Source: Alsobacter soli
GTDB taxonomy: Bacteria > Pseudomonadota > Alphaproteobacteria > Rhizobiales > Beijerinckiaceae
NCBI RefSeq assembly: GCF_003004785.1
Contig: NZ_PVZS01000026.1
Location: 1 to 55,003 of the forward strand
DNA: 55,003 bases
Reading direction: 5' to 3'
In this document: positions 3,401 to 42,004 of the stretch, in pieces
How the letters are laid out: each line of letters begins with the position of its first letter
Position numbering within the stretch: position 1 is the first letter of the stretch
Notes under the pieces: generated by a model
Databases searched by the model: none
Seen by the model: only the letters and a program-made list of their open reading frames with translations
What the model was told of the DNA's origin: nothing
Program-made: the position numbers and the translations under genes

Positions 3401-4744
3401 CTTGCCGCGGGCCACCATGTCCAGGCGGTCGCCGAGGGCGCGGGCCTCGCCGGGGTCGGCGGGCGCGAGCCCTCGGGCGTGGGCGTCGAAGCTGACGGCA
3501 GAACGCGGATCGGGCGCGCCCTGGGGCGCGGGGACGATGTTCAACGCCCCCGTGACCGAAGCGACCTTGCCCCAGGGCACAGAAATCTCCCGTCCATCCA
3601 GGTTCGCCTGCACAGTCGGCGAGGTCGCCGGACCTTTGGCGGTCCCATCCAGCACCAGCCGGCCGATCTCGGCCTCGCCGGCGCGGGTGCGGCCGCCCTC
3701 GGTCGGAACCGAGCGGATCGCCAGCCGCAGGTCGATGTTGTTCTGCGGATCCACCGCGCCGGTCACGTTGAGGCGCGCCGCGCGGGCGGCGATGTCCAAC
3801 TGGCGCACGTTCAGCGCGCCGTCGTCGCCGACCAGCACGTCGCCGGCGAGATCCGTGGAGCCGGCGAAAATCGGGGCGACCACCGGCGGTAGCAAGGCGG
3901 AGATGCGGGCGCCGAGCGCCAGGGCCACCCGACGGGCCGCGCCTTCGCGGGTCACGGTCGCGCGGCCCTGGGCGCCGAGGTCCGGGCCCGAGACGAAGTT
4001 CAGGCTTGCGGCGAAGTTGTCGAGCGGGCCCTCGCCCTGCACCTTGAGGTCGATCGGGGGCTGGCCGGGGAGATTGACGGCCTTCGCGATCAGGCCGCCC
4101 TGGGGTTCGTTGAAATCGACGTTGAGGGCGAGCCGCGAGCTCTGCGGAACGTAGTTGAGGGTCACGGCGAAGCGGCCGGGGGCGTCCGTGCGGGTCGCCT
4201 GCAGGCGCAGGTCGAGGCCTTCGGCCGGATTGCCCAGCACCGTGCTTCCCGCGGCGGCGATGCGGGCCGCCTGGCCCAGGACGGGCTCGCCCAGCGCCAG
4301 GTCCTTCATGTTGAAGGACTTCACGATCAGCTTCACGGGCAGGGCCGGGAGAGCGGGCGCCTCGGCCGCGTTCGCGACATCCGTTTCGTTGGGCCTTGGA
4401 CGGCGGACGACTTCCAGGCGATCGATCTCAAGCGCGTCGATTTCGAGGCGACGCGACAGGAGCGCGGTGCGGCGCCAGACGAGGCGGGCGCGGTCGAGCG
4501 TGATCCAGACGCCATCCTTGTCGGAGACCTGGACGTCGCGGATGACCGCGTCGGACGACAGCGCGCCTTCCACCGATCCGATGCGGACGCGATTCTCGGG
4601 CGTAGAGAGAGCCCATGAGAACAGCTTGGCGAGCGTGCTCTGGTCGCTCTCCTGCGCCCAGGCCGGGCGATCGGCCTCGGCCCAGGCGCCGGCGAGGGCG
4701 GCGACACCAAGTAGGGCGAGGAGGGCGGCGCGCAGCTTGCTCAT
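455..4744 (-). CDS. tamB: Translocation and assembly module inner-membrane protein TamB
   Basis: The product is a 1429-residue, very long repetitive beta-rich protein (AsmA/TamB type) that would span the periplasm and work with TamA in outer-membrane protein assembly or lipid transfer. Residues 1-30 form an uncleaved signal anchor or signal peptide (LLALLGVAALAGAWA). The middle consists of repeating beta-strand units (runs such as LDGTAKGPATSPTVQANLDG). The last ~350 residues form the conserved TamB (DUF490) C-terminal domain, ending in a predicted strand that ends with tyrosine (AAYEIEY). The start ATG overlaps the tamA TGA by one base (TGATG), which implies translational coupling. Length is typical of alphaproteobacterial TamB. 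Confidence 0.93.
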   Translation of the reverse strand: MSKLRAALLALLGVAALAGAWAEADRPAWAQESDQSTLAKLFSWALSTPENRVRIGSVEGALSSDAVIRDVQVSDKDGVWITLDRARLVWRRTALLSRRLEIDALEIDRLEVVRRPRPNETDVANAAEAPALPALPVKLIVKSFNMKDLALGEPVLGQAARIAAAGSTVLGNPAEGLDLRLQATRTDAPGRFAVTLNYVPQSSRLALNVDFNEPQGGLIAKAVNLPGQPPIDLKVQGEGPLDNFAASLNFVSGPDLGAQGRATVTREGAARRVALALGARISALLPPVVAPIFAGSTDLAGDVLVGDDGALNVRQLDIAARAARLNVTGAVDPQNNIDLRLAIRSVPTEGGRTRAGEAEIGRLVLDGTAKGPATSPTVQANLDGREISVPWGKVASVTGALNIVPAPQGAPDPRSAVSFDAHARGLAPADPGEARALGDRLDMVARGKVDASFNADLSEARLSTATLDTSWTGVVGRRKLDGTADARIPRIGAFSGLVGRELGGSAKLQARLTGDPGRYRIDAALDGQLTDAKVGVPPLDRALAGNVTIKGLARRLPGGLGFMNLRIDGPNIQTQLDGDATTAGANLVAKLTLPELKRVDERITGRADATANLTGSLERPDVKANFAIRDARALGKPIPRLAADLTATDVTGNLDARLKLDGEVDRKPARGGLHLARQGPNTRLDDLDLSVGSVRLSGGVTVDERRLLAGKVGLVASDLNDLSALALVPLSGRLDASLDLSAPDGKQNASIAATGERIGVAGQSLRRLEAHITAADLYGSPVIDGSASADEAVLAGTRFRAVRLTSRGSQQASAFTLAADGDMDVKAEGRLLPGPPIRVDLSALSLARNRQHLALAGPASLTIENGDVVIPALTLAAGAGRLRVAGRAGSKLALTADATRIPLSVADIVSPGLGLAGTLDAHAELGGTASAPTGPYRLSLSKVATAASRAAGVPALDVKADGRLEGERATVNATVSAGPGASLKVGGSAPLGAAGALDLTVRGPLDASLANGLLAASGQRVTGRLNLDLRVEGPVSAPRLGGAATLTGGAFTDPVAGIRLTAIEGRFAARGEEVAIERLTAATRNGGSLSATGRVRVDPGAGFPADIRITGTKAELVSNDTVSATANLSVALSGALARTPRIAGRVDVISMDVSIPERLASIAAPLPNTKHIAPGPAARARLAAARKASTKRAGPPFVAAFDLTLTAQNRIFVRGRGLQAELGGDLRLTGTSKDPNAVGAFNLRNGRIDLAGQRIDLVRGRLTFAGDLTPQLDFLAQTQAADVTAQIAVTGLASQPEFAITSTPPLPQDEVLSRILFNRAAGGLTGVQALQLAQTIAQLSGGGGPDLLGGLRKALGADSLDITSGASGGVGVGVSRYINRHIRFGVRAGSTAADTGVGVDIDVTKNVKLRGQVGANGGASAGAAYEIEY

Positions 4745-6726
4745 CAGAAGGACTGCCCGATGCCGATATAGACCGCGACCGGCTTGTCGCCCTTGCGCGG
4801 ATTGAGCGGGGCGGCGATGTCGAGCCGGATCGGACCCACGGCGGTGTAGTAGCGCAATCCCAGCCCGGCCGCGACGCGGATGGGTTCGTTCAGGCGCGGG
4901 AAGCGGTCGGCGTAGGCCTGGCCGGCGTCCACGAAGGGCACGACGCCGATCGTGTCCGTCACCTTGATGCGGGCCTCGATCGAGCCGTCGATGAGGCTCT
5001 TGCCGCCGATGGGGAAGCGGCCGATCTGGGGGCTCAGGCTCTGGTAGCGGTAGCCGCGCACGGAGCCGCCGCCGCCGGCATAGAAGCGGTAGTTGGACGG
5101 GATGTCCTCGAGGTCGCCGCCCAGGATGGAGCCAAGGCCGATGCGAGCCGCGAGGATGTAACGGGCGTCCTTGTCCAGCGCCCAGTAGGTGGACGCGTTG
5201 GCCTTCGCGACCGTCATGCCGACCGTGGAGCCCAGGAAAGTTGGGTAGGGCGTCACGGACGCCGTGAGCCTGACCCCGCGCGTGGGATCCAGAGGCTTGT
5301 CGGTGGAGTCGTAGGTGTAGGTGATCGGGACGCCGACGAGCGTATAGGTGACCTCGCCCAAGGCGTCGCTGGTCTGCCCCCGCTCGGCCTTGACGCCAAT
5401 TTGCAGCGAGCTCGTGTCCGAGAAACGGTGGCGGATGTCGACTTCTGCGCCGGCCCGGCGGTCCGTATAGGCGTAGCCCTTTTCCCGCGCCGCCTGAGCG
5501 GAGACCAGCAGGTCGTTGCGCGTGCCCCAGAGCCCGGGCTTCAGGAACGTGAAGCCGAACCGGCCGCCGAGATCGGAGCGTTGCAGGCGCTTCTCGTCGC
5601 GCACCCAGGCGGGCTCGCCGATGGCGCGCCCGGCGTAGAACGTGGAGGCCTCGAGCCGCAACACCTCGCCGCCGCCGAAGAGATTGCGGTTGGTCCAGTA
5701 GGTTCGCACCTCCGGGCCGTCGATGGTGGAATACAGCGCCGAAACCCCGAAGGCGTGGCGCTTGCGTTCGGTCAGCTCCACGAAGATGGGAAGCTGCCCA
5801 TTCGCATCCAGCTTTTCGGCCTCGCGGATGCGCACTCCGCCCAGCGCCTCGATGCGGCTGACCGACTTGCGGATGCCGTTCAGAGCAGTCGGCGAATAGG
5901 GATCGCCGGGCTGGGCGTAGATGAAGGAGCGGACCACGGCGTGGTCGACGTCCGGCGCGCCGGACACGGTGATGGGTCCCAGGTTGGCCACGGGGCCGGC
6001 CCGCACGCGAAGGGTGACATCCATCGCGCGAGCCGGATGGAAGACGACGGGCTGTCGCGAGGTTACCTTGGCGAAGGGATGCCCCTGTTCGCGGAAGTGG
6101 TCGACGATGGCGGCCTCGGCCGCCACGACCTCGGCGGAGCGGGCCGGATCACCCGGCTTGGCCTTCACCACGCGCGCAGGCAGCTGATCGGGCGTGAACG
6201 GCTGGCCCGTCGCGTCGTCGAGCACGAAAATGTTGCGGAAGACGTATTGCGGGCCGGGGTTGGCCACGATGCGGATCGGCACGCGGGCCCTGCCCCGGTA
6301 GGCGGTCACCGCGCGAGCCGCGGCTTCCGTTCGGTTCTGGCCGAGCATGAGAGGCACACCGGCCACGTCGATCGTGACCGCGGCGTCGTAGTAGCCCAGG
6401 CCCCAAAGGGCGTCGACGATCTTGGGCAGGTCGCTTTCCGCGAGGCGCACCAGCTGGTCGGGAGCGCCCGGCGCTTCCGTGCGCAGTCGTTGGAGGCTGG
6501 AGGCGTCCTCGATGGCTGCCTTCGCCTCCTTCGGGGCGCCCTGTGTGTCGATGGTGAGGTCGTAGGGATAGGCGTTGGCCGAAGGCTCGGGCGGCTTCTC
6601 GCCGAAGCCGAGCGCACCCAGCAGGTCGAAGGCCTGCGCCGATGGCCCCGGCCCGGGCCCAAGGCCCGCCAGGACACACGCGCACGCCACGACCAAACGT
6701 CGACCCACCAAGAACGCTCCCCTCAC
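4744..6726 (-). CDS. tamA: Autotransporter assembly factor TamA (Omp85 family)
   Basis: This 660-residue Omp85-family outer-membrane protein has a signal peptide (to about residue 32), POTRA domains over roughly residues 60-320 (e.g. GPITVSGAPDVDHAVVRSFI) and a C-terminal 16-strand barrel with the Omp85 motif GGGGSVRGYRYQSL, ending LRYYTAVGPIRLDIAAPLN and a terminal Phe. With TamB it forms the TAM complex that inserts outer-membrane proteins. The listed start is a GTG at 6726. A better start may be the GTG at 6708 (MGRRLVVACACVLAG), because an AGGGGAG ribosome site lies 8 bases before it and the signal peptide then has a normal positively charged N-terminus. It is the first gene of a two-gene operon with tamB. 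Confidence 0.93.
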   Translation of the reverse strand: MRGAFLVGRRLVVACACVLAGLGPGPGPSAQAFDLLGALGFGEKPPEPSANAYPYDLTIDTQGAPKEAKAAIEDASSLQRLRTEAPGAPDQLVRLAESDLPKIVDALWGLGYYDAAVTIDVAGVPLMLGQNRTEAAARAVTAYRGRARVPIRIVANPGPQYVFRNIFVLDDATGQPFTPDQLPARVVKAKPGDPARSAEVVAAEAAIVDHFREQGHPFAKVTSRQPVVFHPARAMDVTLRVRAGPVANLGPITVSGAPDVDHAVVRSFIYAQPGDPYSPTALNGIRKSVSRIEALGGVRIREAEKLDANGQLPIFVELTERKRHAFGVSALYSTIDGPEVRTYWTNRNLFGGGEVLRLEASTFYAGRAIGEPAWVRDEKRLQRSDLGGRFGFTFLKPGLWGTRNDLLVSAQAAREKGYAYTDRRAGAEVDIRHRFSDTSSLQIGVKAERGQTSDALGEVTYTLVGVPITYTYDSTDKPLDPTRGVRLTASVTPYPTFLGSTVGMTVAKANASTYWALDKDARYILAARIGLGSILGGDLEDIPSNYRFYAGGGGSVRGYRYQSLSPQIGRFPIGGKSLIDGSIEARIKVTDTIGVVPFVDAGQAYADRFPRLNEPIRVAAGLGLRYYTAVGPIRLDIAAPLNPRKGDKPVAVYIGIGQSF

Positions 6727-6841
6727 CGGGAGCGAACGCGCGCGACGCGTCCTTGTTCCCGAGGTTTCCGCCCGGGCAGGTTAGCGGAGGCTACCGGAGG
6801 TTGCACAGGCCCAATGTGGGTTGCGGATCCGGTGGGCCGGC

Positions 6842-31956: not shown

Positions 31957-32291
31957 GGCGCTCGCGTAGCAGGAGCGCTTGCGGGCAGTCGTTGATTAGG
32001 AGTCACGACGCGCCCAAACGCGAACCGCCACGGTTGGGGCGAAGCGCGTACATCCGGCGTCTTCGGTCCCTTGCGTGGCGGCGTTTCGGCGGCGGAGCTT
32101 TGCGGCTCGACGCCGCCGTCTGATCTCTAGATGGGGTTGCTGCTCCCGATTGCAAGGCCCGGCGGCGCCGAGCGCGCGCGGCGGCGGCCCCGGCACGCTC
32201 ATTCGGAACAGGCGCGCGGCCGGCCGCGTTGCACAGCGGTCCCGGGCCGCATGGCCGGCGGGACGTTTCGCGATTCGAGGGAGTTCAACAG
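31957..32291. other. 335-base divergent gap with an EcfG-type promoter
   Basis: This lies between the LysE-type gene (minus) and the secreted-protein gene at 32292 (plus). It contains several GC-rich inverted segments and the stress-type promoter at 32205-32230. No open frame here looks like a gene. Confidence 0.5.
32205..32230 (+). promoter_or_regulatory. EcfG-type (general stress response) promoter
   Basis: GGAAC (32205-32209), 17-base spacer, CGTT (32227-32230) matches the alphaproteobacterial general stress sigma factor consensus as known from Methylobacterium, Sphingomonas and rhizobia. It lies 61 bases before the start of the secreted-protein gene at 32292, leaving a normal 5' leader. 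Confidence 0.65.
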
Positions 32292-32888
32292 ATGCGCAGG
32301 ATGATCATTCTGGCGGGCGCGCTCGCCTGCCTGCCGATGGCGGCCCACGCGCAATCCGACGGACGCGACTGGGACAGGCGCGGCGACTGGATGCAGCAAA
32401 CGGGCGATCGAGGGGACTGGCGCGACAGTTCGGACCGCGATCGCTTCGACCGCGGCCGGGGCATGGAGGAATCGCGTGACGCCCGCAGCGGCTGGCGGGA
32501 CCAGGGGCGCTCGCGCGACGGCGAGGACGAAGACCATGGTCGCGGCGGAATGGGCATGGGCATGGACCACGAGGAGATGATGCGCATGCATCATCGCATG
32601 ATGCGCCAGGGCATGGGCATGGGCATGGGCGGGATGGGCCGCGCAGGCGCGAGCTTCATGCTGCGGGCCGGCGACGTCCGCCTCGGGGTGCGCTGCAGTC
32701 CCTCCGAGACCATGAAGGCCTGCGTGGACGCCGCGACGGACCTGATGGACCGGGCCAAGACCCTGTCGACAGGCGGCATGTCCGGCTCGTCCTCCACCAC
32801 GGCTCCGTCCACCTCCGGGTCGGGCGCCGGAACTCCGGGCTCGACGAGCCCTGGAACAGGCGGCGGAGCGGCTGCTCCCAAGCCGTGA
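32292..32888 (+). CDS. Secreted Asp/Arg- and Gly/Met-rich protein of unknown function
   Basis: The 198-residue protein has a clear signal peptide (MRRMIILAGALACLPMAAHA, cleaved before QSD). The mature part is low-complexity: a charged region rich in Asp, Arg and Gly, then a Gly-Met-His stretch (DHEEMMRMHHRMMRQGMGM) around residues 97-118, then a short ordered segment (RLGVRCSPSETMKACVDAATDLMD) with two Cys, then a Ser/Thr/Gly tail. The His/Met-rich part could bind metal such as copper, which is inference. The ordered segment recalls small conserved periplasmic proteins, but I cannot name a family. It has its own EcfG-type promoter and is followed 75 bases later by a BA14K gene. Confidence 0.75.
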   Translation: MRRMIILAGALACLPMAAHAQSDGRDWDRRGDWMQQTGDRGDWRDSSDRDRFDRGRGMEESRDARSGWRDQGRSRDGEDEDHGRGGMGMGMDHEEMMRMHHRMMRQGMGMGMGGMGRAGASFMLRAGDVRLGVRCSPSETMKACVDAATDLMDRAKTLSTGGMSGSSSTTAPSTSGSGAGTPGSTSPGTGGGAAAPKP

Positions 32889-32963: not shown

Positions 32964-33425
32964 ATGAGCCTGGCTCTCCCGCGCAGTACCTTCATGATCT
33001 TCGCCGCCGCTTCGCTGGCGGGCGCGGCCATGATCGCGGCCCGTCCGGCCGCGGCCGCCCCCGCAGCGCCGGCCCTCGTGGCCCAGTCCGCCGACGGCGG
33101 CGCCGTCACCCAGGTCCAGTGGAGTGGGCGCCATTGGGGCGGCCACTATGGCGGTCGTTATGGCGGCGGCTACGGCCGCCACGGCTACTACCGCCACGGC
33201 GGCGGCTGGGGCGGCGGCGCGGCTGCGGCCGGCATCGCCGGCCTCGCCACGGGCGCCATCATCGGCGGCGCTCTTTCGCAGCCCGCCTATCCGGCCTACC
33301 CCGCCTACGGCGCAGTCGAGAGCGGCGGCGATTCCACGGCCTACTGCATGCAGCGGTTCAGGTCCTACGATCCGGCGAGCGGCACTTACCTGGGCTACGA
33401 CGGCATGCGCCATCCCTGCCCGTAA
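32964..33425 (+). CDS. BA14K-family secreted protein
   Basis: The 153-residue protein has a signal peptide (to about residue 32, AAAA), a Gly/His/Tyr-rich stretch (residues ~55-75, HYGGRYGGGYGRHGYY), a hydrophobic Ala/Gly helix with IAGLATGAIIGGAL, and the C-terminal BA14K motif YCMQRFRSYDPASGTYLGYD. The family was named for a Brucella immunoreactive 14-kDa protein with lectin-like activity; related proteins are common in Hyphomicrobiales and are surface- or membrane-associated. A GGAG ribosome site precedes the ATG. It is probably co-transcribed from the stress-type promoter at 32205 and ends in a terminator. Confidence 0.88.
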   Translation: MSLALPRSTFMIFAAASLAGAAMIAARPAAAAPAAPALVAQSADGGAVTQVQWSGRHWGGHYGGRYGGGYGRHGYYRHGGGWGGGAAAAGIAGLATGAIIGGALSQPAYPAYPAYGAVESGGDSTAYCMQRFRSYDPASGTYLGYDGMRHPCP

Positions 33426-33548: not shown

Positions 33549-34946
33549 ATGAGCGAAGCGACACTCTCCCGGCCGACCCGCTCCGCGTGGATCGGAGAGA
33601 TCCGGTCCACCCTGGCCCTGAGCTGGCCCCTGATCCTGACCAACGTCGCCCAGACCGGGATGACGGCGACGGACGTGCTCATGCTTGGCCGGCTCGGTCC
33701 CGAGGCCGTCGCGGCCAGCGCCCTGGGAGCCAACCTGTACTTCTTCTTCCTGATGTTCGGCATCGGGGTGATGAGCGCCACCTCGTCCCTGGTGGCCGCG
33801 CAACGGGGGCGGATGGCGCATTCCGTGCGAGAGGTCCGGCGCATCCTGCGGCAGGGAATCTGGGCGGCCGTGTGCATCAGCGTTCCGTGCTGGGCGGCGC
33901 TGTGGAACGGCGAGACCGTGCTGCGCTGGCTGGGGCAGGACCCCAAGCTCGCGGCGGAGGCCGGAGCCTATCTGCACACGCTGCAGTGGAGCATCCTGCC
34001 GTTCCTGCTTTACCTGGCGCTGCGCTCGTTCATGGCGGCCATGGAGCGGCCCGCCTGGGCGATGGCGGCCGTGTTCATCGGGCTTGGGGCGAACGCGCTG
34101 GCGAACTGGCTGCTCATCTTCGGCCACTGGGGCTTCCCCAGGCTCGGCGTGCCTGGGTCGGGACTGGCCACGCTCTGCGCCACCACGCTCATGGCGCTGG
34201 TGCTTGTCGGTGTGCTGATGTCCGACCGGCGTTTCCGGCGCTATCGCGTGTTCGGCCGTCTCTGGCGGCCCGACTGGTCGCGCTTCCGCGCGTTCTGGCG
34301 GCTCGGCCTGCCGATCGGCGTCACCGTGCTGTTCGAGGCCTCCATCTTTCAGGCGGCGGTGGTGCTCATGGGCCTGATCGGCGAGACGGCCCTGGCGGCC
34401 CATGCCGTAGCTATCCAGATCGCCTCCCTGACGTTCATGGTCCCGCTTGGCATGGGGCAGGCCGCCACGGTGAGGGTGGGGCGAGCCTTCGGAGCCCGCG
34501 ACCCGCACGGGGCGACGCTTGCCGGCTGGACGGCCTTCGCGCTCGGGGTCGGCTTCATGGCCTGCACGGCGGTGCTGATGGTGAGCGCCCCCAACCTGCT
34601 GATCGGGGCGTTTCTCGATGTTTCAGCCCCGACCAACGCGCATGTGGTGGAGACCGCCACCCTGTTCCTTGCGTTTGCGGCGCTGTTCCAGGTGGCCGAC
34701 GGCGCGCAGGTGGTCGGGGCCGGCATGCTGCGGGGCCTGCATGACACGCGCGTGCCCATGTGGTTCGCGGCCCTGGGCTATTGGGGCCTCGGCTTCCCGC
34801 TCGGCGCGACGCTTGCGTTTCCGCTTCATTGGGGAGGGGCGGGGGTCTGGGCCGGGCTCGCCGCGGGCCTCGCCGTGGTCGCCGTGCTGATGCTGTGGCG
34901 GTGGGCGCGTCGAGACGCCCTGGGCCTTGTGCCTCGGATGCGTTGA
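33549..34946 (+). CDS. MATE-family multidrug/metabolite exporter
   Basis: The 465-residue protein has twelve predicted helices in two homologous halves. The first begins ALSWPLILTNVAQTGMTATD, and the second begins AFWRLGLPIGVTVLFEASIFQ. Such NorM-like exporters expel cationic drugs or metabolites using a sodium or proton gradient. Features include DVLMLGRLGPEAVAA and a QVADGAQVVGAGMLRGLHDT stretch typical of helix 10-11. The ATG has no clear ribosome site. It is read alone between a terminator and the phytochrome promoter region. Confidence 0.92.
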   Translation: MSEATLSRPTRSAWIGEIRSTLALSWPLILTNVAQTGMTATDVLMLGRLGPEAVAASALGANLYFFFLMFGIGVMSATSSLVAAQRGRMAHSVREVRRILRQGIWAAVCISVPCWAALWNGETVLRWLGQDPKLAAEAGAYLHTLQWSILPFLLYLALRSFMAAMERPAWAMAAVFIGLGANALANWLLIFGHWGFPRLGVPGSGLATLCATTLMALVLVGVLMSDRRFRRYRVFGRLWRPDWSRFRAFWRLGLPIGVTVLFEASIFQAAVVLMGLIGETALAAHAVAIQIASLTFMVPLGMGQAATVRVGRAFGARDPHGATLAGWTAFALGVGFMACTAVLMVSAPNLLIGAFLDVSAPTNAHVVETATLFLAFAALFQVADGAQVVGAGMLRGLHDTRVPMWFAALGYWGLGFPLGATLAFPLHWGGAGVWAGLAAGLAVVAVLMLWRWARRDALGLVPRMR

Positions 34947-35112: not shown

Positions 35113-35137
35113 GGAACCTTCCGCCCGGCGCGACGTT
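35113..35137 (+). promoter_or_regulatory. EcfG-type promoter of the heme oxygenase-bacteriophytochrome operon
   Basis: GGAAC (35113-35117), 16-base spacer, CGTT (35134-35137), 77 bases before the heme oxygenase start. It fits the general stress response consensus exactly in both boxes. It lies in a 268-base gap that has no other supported gene. Confidence 0.68.
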
Positions 35138-35214
35138 TGCAGGCTTCGCTGGATCGGTCCCGTTCCCGGCGGCCTTGTCGCGCGGGCTGCGCTTCCCCTG
35201 AATTCGGGTTGTGC

Positions 35215-35772
35215 ATGCTGCTCGACCGGCTCAAGCGCGAGACCCGCGCAGACCATGACAGGATCGAGGCGGATCTGGACCTGCTCAGGCCCAATCTGTC
35301 GCTGGCGGACTACGTCGGACTGCTGCAGCGCTATCACGCCTTCTTCCGGCGCTGGGAGCCGCGCGTCGGCGCGCTGGTCGGCGACGAGGCCTTCTTCGGT
35401 CCTCGGCGAAAGCTCGGGCTGCTGGCGGACGACCTCGACCAGCTCGGCGCCAAGCCGTCGACGCTCACGGCGCCCGTGCCGGCGTTGGCCAGCAGGGCCG
35501 AGGCGATGGGGTCGCTTTACGTGCTGGAGGGATCAACCATGGGCGGTCTGGTGATCGCCAGGCATATCGAGGGCGTCCTGGGCCTGCGTGGTCCAGGAGC
35601 GCGGTATTTCAGCAATTACGGCCGCGACGCCGCGGAGCGGTGGCGCACGTTCCGGGCCGCCCTGGCCGACATCTCGCGTCCCGAGGACGAAGACGCCATC
35701 GTGGCCGCCGCGCGCGGGACATTCGTTCTGCTGAACCGCTGGCTCTGCCCCCAGGAGCCTGCCCATGGGTGA
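35215..35772 (+). CDS. bphO: Biliverdin-producing heme oxygenase
   Basis: The 185-residue heme oxygenase opens haem to biliverdin IX-alpha, the chromophore of the phytochrome encoded next. The proximal haem ligand is likely His14 (KRETRADHDRIEAD), and the distal glycine-rich helix reads VLEGSTMGGLVIARHI. The start MLLDRLKRE at 35215 matches the family. The open frame from 35137 overlaps the promoter and is rejected. Its stop overlaps the bphP start by 8 bases, so the two are coupled. Together they supply and use the bilin pigment. Confidence 0.92.
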   Translation: MLLDRLKRETRADHDRIEADLDLLRPNLSLADYVGLLQRYHAFFRRWEPRVGALVGDEAFFGPRRKLGLLADDLDQLGAKPSTLTAPVPALASRAEAMGSLYVLEGSTMGGLVIARHIEGVLGLRGPGARYFSNYGRDAAERWRTFRAALADISRPEDEDAIVAAARGTFVLLNRWLCPQEPAHG

Positions 35773-37984
35773 AGCGCTGAACGATCCAATGCTCGACAGC
35801 TGCGCGCGCGAGCCGATCCGCACGCCCGGCAGCATCCAGCCGCATGGGGCCCTCTTCGCCCTGACGCCCGGGGAGTGGCGGCTGGCGCAGGCCAGCGCGA
35901 ACGCAGACCGGGTCCTGAACTGCTCCGTGGAGAGCGCCCTCGGGCAGCCGATCAGCGCGGTGCTGGCCGACGGGGCAGACGACATCGCCGCCGTGCTGGC
36001 GGGCGGGGGCGAGTTTCCGCCCTCGCGCGTGCTGCGCATCGCCGGGGTTGACTACCACCCGGTGTCGCACTGGTCCGGCGGGGTCATGATTCTCGAGCTG
36101 GAGGAATCCGCGCGGGGAGCGAACGTCCGGCTCGAGGACGCCTATGGGGACGTCCGGCGCTTCGCCCAGGAGATGCAGGACAGCCACGACGAGCGGGACG
36201 TCGCGCAGAGCGCCGCGGATACGGTTCGCCGCATCACGGGCTTCGACCGCGCGCTGATCTACCGCTTCGACGAGAACTGGAACGGCGTCGTGCTGGGCGA
36301 GAGCCGCAATGACGCCCTGCCGTCGTACCTGCACCTGCGCTTCCCGGCGTCGGATATCCCGGCGCAGGCGCGCGAGCTCTACCGCCTGAACCGCGTGCGC
36401 CAGATCCCGAACGCGGCTTACGACCCCGCGCCCATCCTGCGCGCGCCCGGCGTCGCCTCGCCGGAGCCTCTCGACCTGTCCTACTCGGTGTTGCGGAGCG
36501 TGTCGCCCGTGCACCTCGAGTACATGCGGAACATGGGCACGGCGGCGTCCATGTCCATTTCGATCGTCGTGAACGGCCGGCTCTGGGGGCTGATCTCCTG
36601 CCACAGCGCAGAACCGCGCCGGGCGCCCCAGCCGGTGCGTACGGCCTGCGACTTCATCGGGCAGATCATGGCGATGCGCCTGGCCGGCCTGGACCTCTAC
36701 GCCGAAGCCTCCGAGCGCGTGCGCCTGCAGAGCGTCCACGCCCGCCTGCTCACCGCAATGGCCCTGGCGCCAAACCTCCTTGTGGGCCTGACCCAGGACG
36801 GCGGAGCCCTGCTTGACCTGACGGGAGCGGCCGGCGCCTCCGTGGTGTCGGACATGGAGGTCCGATCCGTGGGGCAGACGCCGGACGACCGCGCGGTCCG
36901 CGCCATCGCGGGCCGGCTGTCCAGCCTGACGGAAGACGGCGTCTACGTGACCGAGTCGCTGGCGCGTGACATCCCGGAAGCGGCGGAGCACAGGGACAGC
37001 GCGAGCGGCCTCCTGGCCATCTCGATCTCGCAGATCCACCCCAGCTACGTGCTCTGGTTCCGGCCCGAGGTGATCCGGACCGTGCACTGGGCGGGCGAGC
37101 CCGCCAAGACGCGCGAGCCCGGCTCCGAGCGGCTGTCGCCGCGCAAGTCGTTCGAGTCCTGGAAGGAGACCGTCCGGCTCACGGCCGACCCCTGGTCGCA
37201 GCCGGCCGTCGACGCCGCCCGGGCGCTGCGAACCTCCGTGGTCGACATCGTGCTGCGGAAGGCCGAGCAGATGGCCGAGCTCACGGGCGAGCTCGAAAAG
37301 TCCAACAAGGAGCTCGAGGCTTTCTCGTATTCCGTGTCGCACGACCTGCGCGCGCCGTTCCGGCACATCGTGGGCTACGCGGAGCTCTTGCGGGAGCGGC
37401 TCAGCGGCACGCTGGACGACAAGGGGGCGCATTACCTGGAGACCATCATCCAGTCAGCCTTCTCGGCCGGCCGGCTCGTGGACGACCTGCTGAGCTTCTC
37501 CCAGGCCGGGCGCGTCACCCTGCATCCAGTCCGCGTGGACATGGGCAAGCTGGTGGAGGAGGTGCGCCGGCTGCTATCGCCTCAGACCGCGGGCCGTTCC
37601 ATCGAGTGGAAGATCAGCAAGCTCCCGCCCGTGCACGGGGACCCGAGCCTGCTGCGCCAGGTCTGGCAGAACCTGATCTCCAACGCCGTGAAATACACCA
37701 GCGGGCGCGAGACGGCCCTGATCGAGATCTCGGCGGAGAAGAAGGCCAACGAGACCCTCTTCACCGTCCGCGACAACGGGGTCGGCTTCGACATGACTTA
37801 TGTGGGCAAGCTCTTCGGCGTGTTCCAGCGGCTGCACCGGGCCGAGGAGTTCGAGGGCACCGGCATCGGCTTGGCCAATGTGCGCCGCATGGTGGAGCGC
37901 CACGGCGGCCGCGTATGGGCGGAAGGCGTGCTCGACCAGGGCGCCACGTTCCACTTCACTCTTCCCAACCCGGAGGCCCGCTGA
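35765..37984 (+). CDS. bphP: Bacteriophytochrome histidine kinase
   Basis: The 739-residue red/far-red photoreceptor has PAS-GAF-PHY photosensory domains followed by a histidine kinase. Cys13 (DSCAREPIRTPGSIQPHG) is positioned to bind biliverdin covalently, as in bacterial phytochromes. The GAF domain has FPASDIPAQARELY with Asp197. The kinase has the H-box FSYSVSHDLRAPFRH with His526, NLISNAVKYTS and DNGVGFD, ending with GTGIGLANV. An AGGAG site lies 8 bases before the ATG. It is the second gene of the operon. Its stop overlaps the next start by one base (TGATG). Confidence 0.95.
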   Translation: MGEALNDPMLDSCAREPIRTPGSIQPHGALFALTPGEWRLAQASANADRVLNCSVESALGQPISAVLADGADDIAAVLAGGGEFPPSRVLRIAGVDYHPVSHWSGGVMILELEESARGANVRLEDAYGDVRRFAQEMQDSHDERDVAQSAADTVRRITGFDRALIYRFDENWNGVVLGESRNDALPSYLHLRFPASDIPAQARELYRLNRVRQIPNAAYDPAPILRAPGVASPEPLDLSYSVLRSVSPVHLEYMRNMGTAASMSISIVVNGRLWGLISCHSAEPRRAPQPVRTACDFIGQIMAMRLAGLDLYAEASERVRLQSVHARLLTAMALAPNLLVGLTQDGGALLDLTGAAGASVVSDMEVRSVGQTPDDRAVRAIAGRLSSLTEDGVYVTESLARDIPEAAEHRDSASGLLAISISQIHPSYVLWFRPEVIRTVHWAGEPAKTREPGSERLSPRKSFESWKETVRLTADPWSQPAVDAARALRTSVVDIVLRKAEQMAELTGELEKSNKELEAFSYSVSHDLRAPFRHIVGYAELLRERLSGTLDDKGAHYLETIIQSAFSAGRLVDDLLSFSQAGRVTLHPVRVDMGKLVEEVRRLLSPQTAGRSIEWKISKLPPVHGDPSLLRQVWQNLISNAVKYTSGRETALIEISAEKKANETLFTVRDNGVGFDMTYVGKLFGVFQRLHRAEEFEGTGIGLANVRRMVERHGGRVWAEGVLDQGATFHFTLPNPEAR

Positions 37985-38448
37985 TGGCCGAGCTGAGACC
38001 CATCCTGCTCGTGGAGGACAGCTCCCGCGACGTGGAGCTGACCTTGGCGGCCCTGGCGAAATGCCAGCTCGCCAACGAGGTCATCGTCGTGCGGGACGGG
38101 GCCGAGGCTCTGGACTACCTTTACGCTCGCAACGCCTTCCAGGATCGGGAGCGCGGCGACCCGGCCGTGGTGCTGCTCGACCTCAAGCTGCCGAAGATGG
38201 ACGGCCTCGAGGTCCTGGAGCAGATCAAGAAGGACCACGATCTTCGCCCCATCCCTGTCGTGATGCTCACATCTTCGCGAGAGGAGCGGGATCTGGTGCG
38301 CAGTTACCAACTGGGGGTCAACGCTTTCGTGGTGAAGCCCGTTGATTTCCAGGAGTTCTTCAAAGCCATCCAGGAGCTTGGCATGTTCTGGGCGATCCTC
38401 AACGAGCCGCCGCCTCCGGGCAGCCGCTTGCGTTCTTCCCAGGGTTGA
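37984..38448 (+). CDS. Single-domain response regulator, phytochrome partner (Rcp1-like)
   Basis: The 154-residue receiver (LRPILLVEDSSRDVELTLAA) has the phospho-acceptor Asp66 (VVLLDLKLPKMDGLEVL), a Thr in VVMLTSSREERD and Lys in FVVKPVDFQEFF. It resembles Rcp1-type response regulators found next to phytochrome kinases, with a C-terminal tail (FWAILNEPPPP) that promotes dimers in relatives. It has no output domain. It would accept phosphate from BphP and pass it on or act by binding. It is coupled to bphP by a one-base overlap. Confidence 0.92.
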   Translation: MAELRPILLVEDSSRDVELTLAALAKCQLANEVIVVRDGAEALDYLYARNAFQDRERGDPAVVLLDLKLPKMDGLEVLEQIKKDHDLRPIPVVMLTSSREERDLVRSYQLGVNAFVVKPVDFQEFFKAIQELGMFWAILNEPPPPGSRLRSSQG

Positions 38449-38467
38449 GCGCGTGCCGGGCAGCAGA

Positions 38468-39481
38468 ATGGTCAAGATCCTCCTCGTCGAAGATTCGGAG
38501 CTGGACGCCGATCTGGTCGGCGAATACCTGCGCAAGAGCGGGCTGAGCTTTTCCGTCACACGGGTCGAGGATCGGGCGGGCTTCGAAGCGGAGCTCGCGA
38601 AGGGCGGCTACGACCTCATCCTCTCCGACTTCTCGCTTCCAAGCTTCGACGGGATGGCGGCCCTGGCCCTGAGGCGCGAGCGGGCCCCCAACGTGCCGTT
38701 CATCTTCGTGTCCGGCGTGCTCGGCGAGGAGATCGCGATCGAGTCGCTGAAACAGGGCGCGACGGATTACGTGCTGAAGCCCCGATTGCAGCGCCTGGGC
38801 CCCTCGGTGGAGCGCGCGCTGCGGGAGAGCGAAGCCCAGAGCCTGCGACGGCGCGCCGAGGAGCGGACGCGCCTGCTGGTGGCGGAGCTGAGCCACCGGG
38901 TGAAGAACACCCTGATGACCGTGATCTCCATCGCCCAGCAGACGCTGCGACGGAGCGACGACCTGAAGGCGTTCGAGACGGCCTTCCTGGGGCGCATGCA
39001 CGCGCTCGCCGGCGCCCATTCGCTGCTGCTGCGGGCCAACTGGGGCGACATGGACCTGGAGGAACTCCTGTCGGAGTCGCTGAAGCCGTTCCGGCGAGGG
39101 GACGGCCAGCACGTGCTGCTCCACGGGCAGGATGTCCAGCTGCCCCCGCAACACGCCCTGACGGTGAACCTGATCATCCACGAACTGGCGACCAACGCGG
39201 CCAAGTACGGCGCGCTCGCCTCGGATGGCGGCCGGATCTTCGTGGACTGGACGGTGGAAGACCGCGGCGGCGCGGATCACCTTCACCTGACCTGGCGGGA
39301 GCAGGACGGTCCGCCCGTCAAGGAGCCGCTGAAGCGCGGCTTCGGGTCGACGCTGATCCAGCGCAGCGTCGGTTTCGAGCTGGGCGGGACCGTGTCGCTG
39401 CGCTTTCCGCAGACGGGCGTGGTGTGCGAACTGGATTTCCCGCTTGCGCCGGAGCCGCGAGACATCGAGATCCAGACCTGA
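38468..39481 (+). CDS. Receiver-HWE histidine kinase hybrid
   Basis: The 337-residue protein has an N-terminal receiver (ILLVEDSELDADLV; Asp54 in LILSDFSLPSFDG; Lys in YVLKPRLQ) followed by an HWE-family kinase. The H-box is LLVAELSHRVKNTLM with His143. The N-box LIIHELATNAAKYGAL (His238) and the LTWREQDGP segment (Trp276, Glu278) supply the residues that name the HWE class. No transmembrane segment exists, so it is soluble and takes its input through the receiver. HWE kinases feed the PhyR general stress pathway in alphaproteobacteria. The ATG at 38468 was chosen; a GTG at 38453 with AGGG upstream is a possible alternative. It is the fourth gene of the phytochrome operon. Confidence 0.93.
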   Translation: MVKILLVEDSELDADLVGEYLRKSGLSFSVTRVEDRAGFEAELAKGGYDLILSDFSLPSFDGMAALALRRERAPNVPFIFVSGVLGEEIAIESLKQGATDYVLKPRLQRLGPSVERALRESEAQSLRRRAEERTRLLVAELSHRVKNTLMTVISIAQQTLRRSDDLKAFETAFLGRMHALAGAHSLLLRANWGDMDLEELLSESLKPFRRGDGQHVLLHGQDVQLPPQHALTVNLIIHELATNAAKYGALASDGGRIFVDWTVEDRGGADHLHLTWREQDGPPVKEPLKRGFGSTLIQRSVGFELGGTVSLRFPQTGVVCELDFPLAPEPRDIEIQT

Positions 39482-39501
39482 GTTCCAGCGCGCGGCGGGC
39501 C

Positions 39502-39903
39502 TCAGGCCCGCATGGCTCCGGGCTCCCGGACCGCGCCGAACGCCTTCTCCATGGCGCGGCGAAGCGCGATCTCGTCGTAGGGCTTGGCGACCTGCGGCAG
39601 GGAGCGGAACGGCTGCGGCAGCACGGGCGTGTCGGCGTAGCCGCTGCAGAACAGCACGGGCACGCCGCGCTGAGCCAGCAGTTCGGCGACCGGATAGATC
39701 AGCCGCCCGCGCACGTTCACGTCCAGGATGGCGGCGTCCAGCCGCTCGGACCGAGCGGCTGATTCAGCCTCCTCGATCTGCGAAAAAGGGCCGACGATCT
39801 CGCAGCCCATGTCATTCAGAATATCCTCCAGCGCGAGCGCCACCAGGAGTTCGTCCTCGACGACGAGGACCCGCAAGCCGGAGAAATCAATCATGGATGC
39901 CAT
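39502..39903 (-). CDS. Single-domain response regulator resembling FAT GUY receivers
   Basis: The 133-residue receiver (RVLVVEDELLVALALEDIL) has the phospho-acceptor Asp61 (AAILDVNVRGRLIYP) and VPVLFCSGYAD followed by VAKPYDE with Lys107. The FCSGY segment sits where FAT GUY receivers such as SdrG and MrrA have FATG-type motifs; those proteins act between HWE kinases and PhyR in the general stress response. The likely start is ATG 39894 (MIDFSG), because an EcfG-type promoter ends at 39904 and transcription would begin near it. It is convergent with the phytochrome operon, 20 bases from the kinase stop. Its role as a phospho-shuttle is inference. Confidence 0.9.
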   Translation of the reverse strand: MASMIDFSGLRVLVVEDELLVALALEDILNDMGCEIVGPFSQIEEAESAARSERLDAAILDVNVRGRLIYPVAELLAQRGVPVLFCSGYADTPVLPQPFRSLPQVAKPYDEIALRRAMEKAFGAVREPGAMRA

Positions 39904-39928
39904 AACGCAGAGCGGGGCTGCGGGTTCC
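39904..39928 (-). promoter_or_regulatory. EcfG-type promoter of the convergent response regulator
   Basis: On the minus strand GGAAC (39928-39924), 16-base spacer, CGTT (39907-39904). The -10 box touches the first ATG at 39903, so the transcript should start around the second ATG (39894), giving an mRNA with almost no leader. Confidence 0.65.
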
Positions 39929-41423: not shown

Positions 41424-41599
41424 GGCCTCCCCCCATTGATTCGCCCAGCCCGGGCGGCCGCTCTTGCAGCGCTCACGTCAACGCTCATCGAGGAGGCTTG
41501 TTCCCGGCGTTAGCACAATCTTAACGGGTTCTTCGTTGTCGGACCGGGTGGCCGGTGATAGCGTGCCCGCCCGTTGCGGCGCCGTGAAGAGGGCGGGGC

Positions 41600-42004
41600 A
41601 TGACAGCGACGATCGCAATCGCCGAAGACGAGGCAGACCTGCGCGACGCAGTGGTGGAATACCTGTCGCAGCATGGGTTTCGCGTGCTGTCGGCCCGGGA
41701 CGCCGCGAGCTTCCGCGCCCTGACCCAGGACGAGCCGATCTCCGTCGCCGTGCTGGACATCTCCATGCCTGGCGAGGATGGGCTGTCCCTGGCCCGATGG
41801 CTGCTCGAGCAAGGCGCCCCGGGCATCATCTTCGCGAGCGCCCATGGGGCGGAGATCGATCGGGTGGTGGGTCTGGAACTCGGGGCGGACGACTACCTGG
41901 TCAAACCGTACGATCTCCGCGAGTTGCTGGCCCGTGTCCGCTCGGTGCTCAGGCGACTGGACGCGCCTGCGCCACCCTGGGCGACGGCCGACGCGGCCAT
42001 CTGA
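41600..42004 (+). CDS. OmpR-like receiver lacking a DNA-binding domain
   Basis: The 134-residue receiver (IAIAEDEADLRDAVVEYL) has phospho-acceptor Asp53 (AVLDISMPGEDGLSLA) and ADDYLVKPYDLRELLARVRSVLRR, a tail typical of OmpR-family receivers just before their winged helix. The frame stops 12 residues later, so no output domain exists. The following 33 bases and the next gene do not continue it. It could be a stand-alone receiver or a decayed OmpR-type regulator. No kinase is adjacent. Confidence 0.88.
   Translation: MTATIAIAEDEADLRDAVVEYLSQHGFRVLSARDAASFRALTQDEPISVAVLDISMPGEDGLSLARWLLEQGAPGIIFASAHGAEIDRVVGLELGADDYLVKPYDLRELLARVRSVLRRLDAPAPPWATADAAI

Follow-up and report, generated by a model that had tools for sequence, protein, structure and literature searches.

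A bacteriophytochrome and Rec-HWE kinase module with EcfG-type promoter sites in Alsobacter soli

Can a red-light sensor be part of the general stress response of an alphaproteobacterium, and could such a sensor act back on that response? This question is raised by five neighboring genes of Alsobacter soli in a stretch of 55,003 nucleotides (nt), called the window below, on contig C19 of the 5.19 Mb genome. Four genes for chromophore synthesis, a bacteriophytochrome, a single-domain receiver (RR1), and a histidine kinase with a receiver domain (Rec-HWE kinase) lie in one row, and the gene of a second receiver (RR2) converges with them. Each of the two transcription units is preceded by a perfect EcfG-type promoter site, which would place the complete module under the stress sigma factor. 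The features are as follows:

35113..35137, plus strand: EcfG-type site of the bphO-bphP operon, GGAAC-N16-CGTT, perfect, ending 77 nt before the bphO ATG
35215..35772, plus strand: bphO, heme oxygenase for biliverdin (Pfam Heme_oxygenase, 37.6 bits, cut-off 23)
35765..37984, plus strand: bphP, bacteriophytochrome histidine kinase of the order PAS-GAF-PHY-HisKA-HATPase (Pfam PAS_2, GAF, PHY, HisKA, HATPase_c)
37984..38448, plus strand: RR1, phytochrome-type single-domain receiver of the AgR/Rcp1 kind (Pfam Response_reg)
38468..39481, plus strand: Rec-HWE histidine kinase, 337 residues (Response_reg, 60.1 bits; HWE_HK, PF07536, 89.4 bits, cut-off 22.8)
39502..39903, minus strand: RR2, convergent ExsF-like single-domain receiver (Pfam Response_reg, 34.5 bits, cut-off 30.2)
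39904..39928, minus strand: EcfG-type site of RR2, GGAAC-N16-CGTT, perfect, ending directly at the annotated RR2 ATG

The first-pass annotation of the window had described a bphO-bphP-receiver-receiver/HWE kinase row with a convergent receiver 20 bases away, and both the coordinates and the Pfam assignments, which all score above their cut-offs, agree with this description. The start of bphP lies within the end of bphO, the start of RR1 within the end of bphP, and the convergent stop codons of the Rec-HWE kinase and RR2 genes are separated by the said distance. As judged from the protein sequences, all parts are present with intact catalytic residues.

Promoter sites and their conservation

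The consensus of EcfG-dependent promoters is GGAAC-N16/17-CGTT. The perfect matches upstream of both transcription units, already pointed out in the first-pass annotation, are exact and correctly oriented. Per 300 nt of one strand, the composition of the window predicts perfect sites with N16 or N17 at a chance frequency of about 0.0017. The window contains six perfect sites at spacings of 15-18, compared to a mean of 1.14 in shuffled sequences, and none of 100 shuffles reached six. In the complete genome, we counted 134 perfect sites (spacing 16-17) versus 68 for the reversed control pattern; about half of the genomic sites are therefore background, and as long as its position is left aside, a single site is about as likely to be background as not.

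Both phyR/ecfG loci of the genome carry two perfect divergent sites between the PhyR match and the gene of the extracytoplasmic function (ECF) sigma factor. At the second phyR locus, these sites are within the longest phyR reading frame yet upstream of the PhyR match. The divergent sites validate the motif as a predicted promoter element in this genome. The regions L155 and L156 hold 8 and 14 perfect sites, respectively (shuffles 0.24 and 0.28), with one site in common. Taken together, L155/L156 (C89:108000-138500) appear as a stress-regulon hub with 21 perfect sites, two phyR/ecfG pairs separated by about 18 kb, two further HWE/HisKA_2 kinases, and a receiver.

To see how far the gene order extends, the five window proteins were used for a locus search that covered 80 genome loci, the best among 192, and 10 plasmid loci (510 plasmid records had a match, 50 of which were listed), and the 39 of these 90 loci with a frame above 250 bits to BphP were kept for reading. 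The kinase, RR1, and the Rec protein follow each other in this order in 36 of the 39 loci; in several of them, the kinase is not a phytochrome and the Rec protein is not an HWE kinase. A convergent RR2 was found in 10 loci, namely L045, the metagenome-assembled genome (MAG) L046, and the Rhizobiaceae loci L157-L163 and L166, and a co-directional RR2 in L048, L059, and L164. Four more genomes of the order have the convergent module (L172-L175), which brings the total among the loci searched to 15, window included. A search for the same gene order, as recommended in the first-pass annotation for other Hyphomicrobiales, yielded 14 further loci. The bphO gene lies directly upstream in 5 of the 15 modules (window, L045, L046, L172, and L173), and in L045, which we took as Alsobacter metallidurans, and in L046 (SZAS-4 MAG), an orthologue occupies the same position. 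The Rec-HWE kinase is 84% identical to that of A. metallidurans, the nearest named relative found. In a sample of 59 genomes of the family (own included), the genus mate alone had a further full-length match among the matches listed, and in a survey of the order, matches at E<=1e-60 were present in at least 5 of 397 genomes, own included, with five candidates scored per genome.

Three of the loci have peculiarities. The module of Sinorhizobium sp. B11 (L159) is on a plasmid near kaiB and kaiC genes, and that of Shinella sumterensis (L166) is directly followed by the genes of a heme oxygenase and of a second phytochrome, which is of HWE type. In Falsirhodobacter deserti (L065), the bphP match is split over three adjacent frames, perhaps because of a broken gene or a sequencing fault.

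The stretches upstream of 33 loci were scanned for the motif over 350 nt (29 loci) or 400 nt (the four loci L172-L175). Some start codons were assigned manually on the basis of BLAST offsets, and L112 was scanned at its bphP start despite an upstream heme-oxygenase match. In A. metallidurans, the bphO site is perfect and located at -76 (-77 in the window), with 6 of 16 spacer positions identical. The ungapped flanks are identical at 14 of 50 positions on either side, and with such flanks and such a spacer we rejected the view that the site is conserved merely through conservation of the region. The RR2 site is also perfect in A. metallidurans and at the same position as in the window (11 of 16 spacer positions identical), and as its surroundings are better conserved, it counts less than the bphO site. 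The motif is enriched in that genome (117 sites; control pattern, 62), in which one dense cluster of sites surrounds phyR. A. metallidurans has one phyR at E<=1e-60, and its site at C2:1454260 is identical to the one before the second phyR of A. soli.

Among the more distant loci, the SZAS-4 MAG has a perfect N17 site at -94 before bphO; of the two phyR genes in this MAG, one has sites next to it. Before the first gene, a perfect site is located at -265 in L172 and one-mismatch sites at -144 in L173. In 3 of the 33 loci, a perfect site was found at a distance of at most 150 nt from the scanned start. One-mismatch sites (spacing 16-17) precede RR2 in L046 (at -30), L172, L174, and L175, and PhyR was found in all six relatives tested. 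In L172 (8247, plus) and L175 (8184, plus), genomes of one genus, a perfect site also lies just past RR2 and is directed away from it.

The claim of EcfG-type control over both units is thus well supported at the sequence level by the positional conservation in A. metallidurans and by the validity of the motif at both phyR/ecfG loci, and we regard such control as very likely. The predicted promoter link is well supported but limited to few lineages.

The kinases and the receivers

HWE kinases are defined by a histidine in the N-box and a W-x-E motif. The Rec-HWE kinase has a HELATN box and WRE in addition to the HWE_HK domain and thereby belongs to the HWE family; its Rec domain carries Asp54, and the kinase part His143. 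It lacks a strongly hydrophobic stretch (the highest 19-residue mean is 1.4). Residues 3-149, which comprise Rec and the linker or signaling helix, align gap-free to LvrB over 147 residues, and the match to LvrB ends at residue 150. The kinase part aligns to the LOV histidine kinases 5epv and 6ph4, an alignment that also recognizes the CA part, for which the Pfam family HATPase_c_2 remained below its cut-off. The order of domains is thus Rec-DHp-CA with a phosphorylatable Asp, and Pfam shows no sensor domain besides Rec. By this order and the Asp, the predicted protein belongs with the Rec-controlled kinases of the LvrB/PakF kind.

Bacteriophytochromes have an N-terminal Cys for chromophore attachment. 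In BphP, this is Cys13 in CAREPI, and PASDIPAQAR, PRKSF, and the kinase boxes are also present. The protein was the sole match in the genome at E<=1e-30; against the NCBIfam equivalog NF041576 it scored below the cut-off (345.8 of 1040), as did all NCBIfam matches listed. The phosphoacceptor is His526, with Asp at H+1 and Ala at H+4. The same residues are present in the kinase Agp1, whereas the phosphatase DrBphP has His and Glu at these positions, and Agp1 shows its activity in the dark, as Pr, with phosphotransfer nearly absent in red light (PMC8292422). With the H+1 and H+4 residues of Agp1, BphP should therefore be an Agp1-type kinase.

The Asp, Thr, and Lys motifs of a receiver are present in RR1. 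Of the solved structures, 5brj, presumably an Agrobacterium protein, is its best match (221 bits, 141 residues), and Rcp1 and RcpA also match.

Receivers of the FAT GUY type carry a FATGY-type motif. The best solved relatives of RR2 are 2lpm (1.2e-21), which we take to be Sma0114 and in which FATGYG is read, and SdrG (5ieb; 4.8e-15). The motif of RR2 itself reads FCSGYA in the window and L045, FCTGYA in L046, and VCSGYAE or VCSGYVE in the eight Rhizobiaceae copies. In its description as "FAT GUY-like", the kinship therefore stands and the motif does not, and judging from the sequence RR2 should better be named ExsF-like. Two receivers with FATGYG are encoded elsewhere in the genome, on C34 and C2, and both outscore RR2 against both references. 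As these rank higher, as RR2 is only the fourth of 16 matches to SdrG, and as its motif is FCSGYA, RR2 as the SdrG orthologue was rejected. Since the -10 element of its EcfG-type site abuts the annotated ATG, RR2 more likely begins with the ATG at 39894. The transcripts thus probably start inside the annotated reading frame; a leaderless transcript was also considered.

Signaling flow, known systems, and competing explanations

In Agrobacterium, an agp1-agR-exsG operon with exsF convergent next to the kinase gene has been described, and Agp1 phosphorylates AgR (PMC1552090). That ExsF is a substrate of ExsG was only suggested there, and the role of the second kinase and the convergent receiver was left open (PMC1552090). 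The Alsobacter module has the same layout, with BphP, receiver, and second kinase in one operon and a convergent receiver. Order and orientation are alike in a comparison based on the text and legend of that paper and not on sequence. In contrast to the Agrobacterium cluster, the Alsobacter operon is headed by bphO, and EcfG-type sites precede both units. The gene order as a new layout was rejected, as it is present in Agrobacterium, a cluster to which the first-pass annotation did not refer, and in the further loci described above.

The exsG and exsF genes of Sinorhizobium meliloti are direct targets of RpoE2, and a GGAAC-N16-CGTT promoter has been printed for exsG (PMC6180224). By description, this pair shares with the Alsobacter one the combination of kinase and regulator under an EcfG-type sigma factor, a control that in Alsobacter is predicted. 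The passages of PMC6180224 mention no phytochrome link, whereas the Alsobacter pair sits in a phytochrome operon.

Rhodopseudomonas palustris has phytochrome kinases, a single receiver, and a REC-histidine kinase in bphP2/bphP3-lhfD-lhfE in common with Alsobacter. LhfD accepts the phosphate of BphP2 and BphP3, and LhfE acts downstream of both (PMC6879726). Its output is LhfA and the antenna genes, and unlike the case of the Alsobacter sites, no stress promoter is reported in the passages of PMC6879726.

A parallel for the kinase itself comes from Leptospira, where LvrA phosphorylates LvrB and raises its autokinase activity via Asp56, with a branched flow having been proposed (PMC5863495), and where the structural basis of LvrB activation by Rec phosphorylation is known (PMC13269768). 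Here too, a kinase phosphorylates the Rec domain of a Rec-DHp-CA kinase, and the Rec domain and signaling helix are those that align gap-free with our protein. In contrast to the Alsobacter module with its phytochrome BphP, the LvrA-LvrB system has no phytochrome, and its target is LvrC. LvrB has been likened to Sphingomonas PakF, which is phosphorylated by KipF in the stress response (PMC5863495), and PakF phosphorylates SdrG and PhyR in a relay SdrG-PhyT-PhyR (PMC5898713). By description, PakF is thus also a sensor-less Rec kinase that is phosphorylated by another kinase and feeds a stress relay; no light input is mentioned in the passages of PMC5898713 and PMC5863495, whereas Alsobacter has a phytochrome.

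A light input to such a relay is exemplified by RT-HK, a light-controlled LOV-HWE kinase whose target is one PhyR of two (PMC12148442). Both genomes have two PhyR copies, which in Alsobacter are both on C89. The photosensor of RT-HK is fused to the kinase, whereas the red-light HisKA kinase of Alsobacter would act via the Rec domain. The phytochrome in PMC12172448 drives cyclic di-GMP.

We propose that BphP in its Pr state would autophosphorylate, like Agp1, and pass the phosphate to RR1, a possible sink, and to the Rec domain of the Rec-HWE kinase. Phosphorylated Rec would pull the signaling helices into a coiled coil and free the kinase, as in LvrB, and the kinase would pass its phosphate to RR2 and perhaps also to PhyR or to the receivers with FATGYG. 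In red light, the phosphate flow would be lower. EcfG released upon stress would raise chromophore, sensor, kinase, and RR2 together, making stressed cells light-responsive, and light in turn may trim PhyR-EcfG activity. By analogy to LvrA-LvrB and LhfE, the input from BphP to the Rec-HWE kinase is rather likely. Both RR2 and PhyR are possible targets by analogy, and for an output into PhyR our confidence falls somewhat short of even. For the module as a whole, an Agp1-AgR-ExsG/ExsF-type red/far-red system placed under EcfG with the proposed flow, we see the chances as evenly balanced. The first-pass annotation, which had proposed a light input to the HWE kinase, an effect on PhyR-EcfG activity, and a feedback of EcfG on both units, is supported in part.

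The closed loop, in which stress induces the module through EcfG and the light state of BphP sets the flow from the Rec-HWE kinase into RR2 and PhyR, goes further, and we consider it possible but less likely than not. Several observations weigh against the module as proposed above. Among the 15 convergent modules, only 3 were found to have a perfect site at 150 nt or less from the first gene, with a fourth, L172, at the larger distance given above, and before RR2 in only two (window and L045). In the eight Rhizobiaceae loci, no perfect and correctly oriented site was found within 350 nt of either unit; the EcfG link is therefore not general to the module. The SZAS-4 genome shows little motif excess (53 versus 45 for the control), and for this reason its bphO site is the weaker support. 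The FATGY motif was not found in RR2 as read in the window, L045, L046, and the eight Rhizobiaceae copies, and among the receivers of the genome, RR2 ranks 3rd of 20 against the Sma0114 stretch and 4th of 16 against the SdrG stretch. The light polarity given above is tentative, as is the ground state of BphP (Pr or Pfr), and LhfE, the counterpart of the kinase in R. palustris, drives a non-stress target (PMC6879726). Part of this would fit a one-way wiring in which EcfG turns the module on and the output is a non-stress target reached via RR2 or another receiver, without feedback on PhyR: RR2 departs from the canonical FAT GUY receivers, which the genome encodes at other places, the Rhizobiaceae copies lack the site, and the equivalent REC-histidine kinase acts on the antenna operon via LhfA and not on the stress response. 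However, HWE/HisKA2 kinases coordinate the activation of the stress response in Alphaproteobacteria (PMC12148442), and the Rec-type PakF feeds both SdrG and PhyR (PMC5898713, PMC5863495). We therefore treat one-way wiring as a tentative possibility short of probable.

It is also conceivable that another signal is the main control of the Rec-HWE kinase, with BphP and RR1 forming a separate branch or phosphate sink. LhfE is redox-gated via Cys262, R. palustris can do without the light sensing of BphP2 and BphP3 at low light if conditions are anaerobic (PMC6879726), and LvrA prefers its own receiver (PMC5863495). However, Pfam found no sensor domain besides Rec, and the order of HisKA kinase, RR1, and Rec protein is kept in 36 of 39 loci, so that we consider this explanation improbable. 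Finally, the promoter matches could have arisen by chance in an ordinary Agp1-type cluster with other promoters. The background half of the genomic sites (134 versus 68) and the 12 of 15 convergent modules in which no perfect site was found within 150 nt of the first gene are in line with this. Yet two adjacent units both have perfect sites at the same positions in A. metallidurans, with the bphO site in unalignable flanks, which makes a chance origin very improbable.

With regard to novelty, the module is known, and so is the EcfG-type control of the related exsG/exsF pair; what we describe is a regulatory variant. A whole phytochrome operon under a predicted EcfG-type promoter looks new: the literature searched, with most subscription journals outside its coverage, contained no report of an EcfG-controlled phytochrome operon, and where it showed light acting on the stress response of Alphaproteobacteria, the sensors were LOV-HWE kinases. 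Control by the stress sigma factor would make red-light sensing part of the general stress program. If the proposed flow is true, a phytochrome would feed the alphaproteobacterial general stress response via a Rec-HWE kinase and not via a fused photosensor. The conserved EcfG-type sites give the question of the ExsG/ExsF role a concrete candidate pathway from the stress sigma factor over red-light kinase, Rec-HWE kinase, and receiver to PhyR, and its importance grows if light acts on PhyR.

Surroundings and further sites in the window

The module is flanked by a MatE transporter gene that ends upstream at 34946 and by an M19 dipeptidase gene on the other side. Further perfect sites are present in the window. 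A GGAAC-N16-CGTT site at 6735-6759 (minus strand) lies 8 nt before the GTG of an Omp85-type gene (4744-6726), which is followed by a TamB gene. An N17 site at 32205-32230 (plus strand) precedes by 61 nt the start codon (ATG at 32292) of a gene for a small, apparently secreted protein with no Pfam match, and a BA14K protein gene follows at 32964. Finally, a site at 41480-41504 (minus strand) lies 56 nt before a possible minus-strand gene for a protein of 78 residues, and a single receiver is encoded nearby at 41600-42001 (plus strand).

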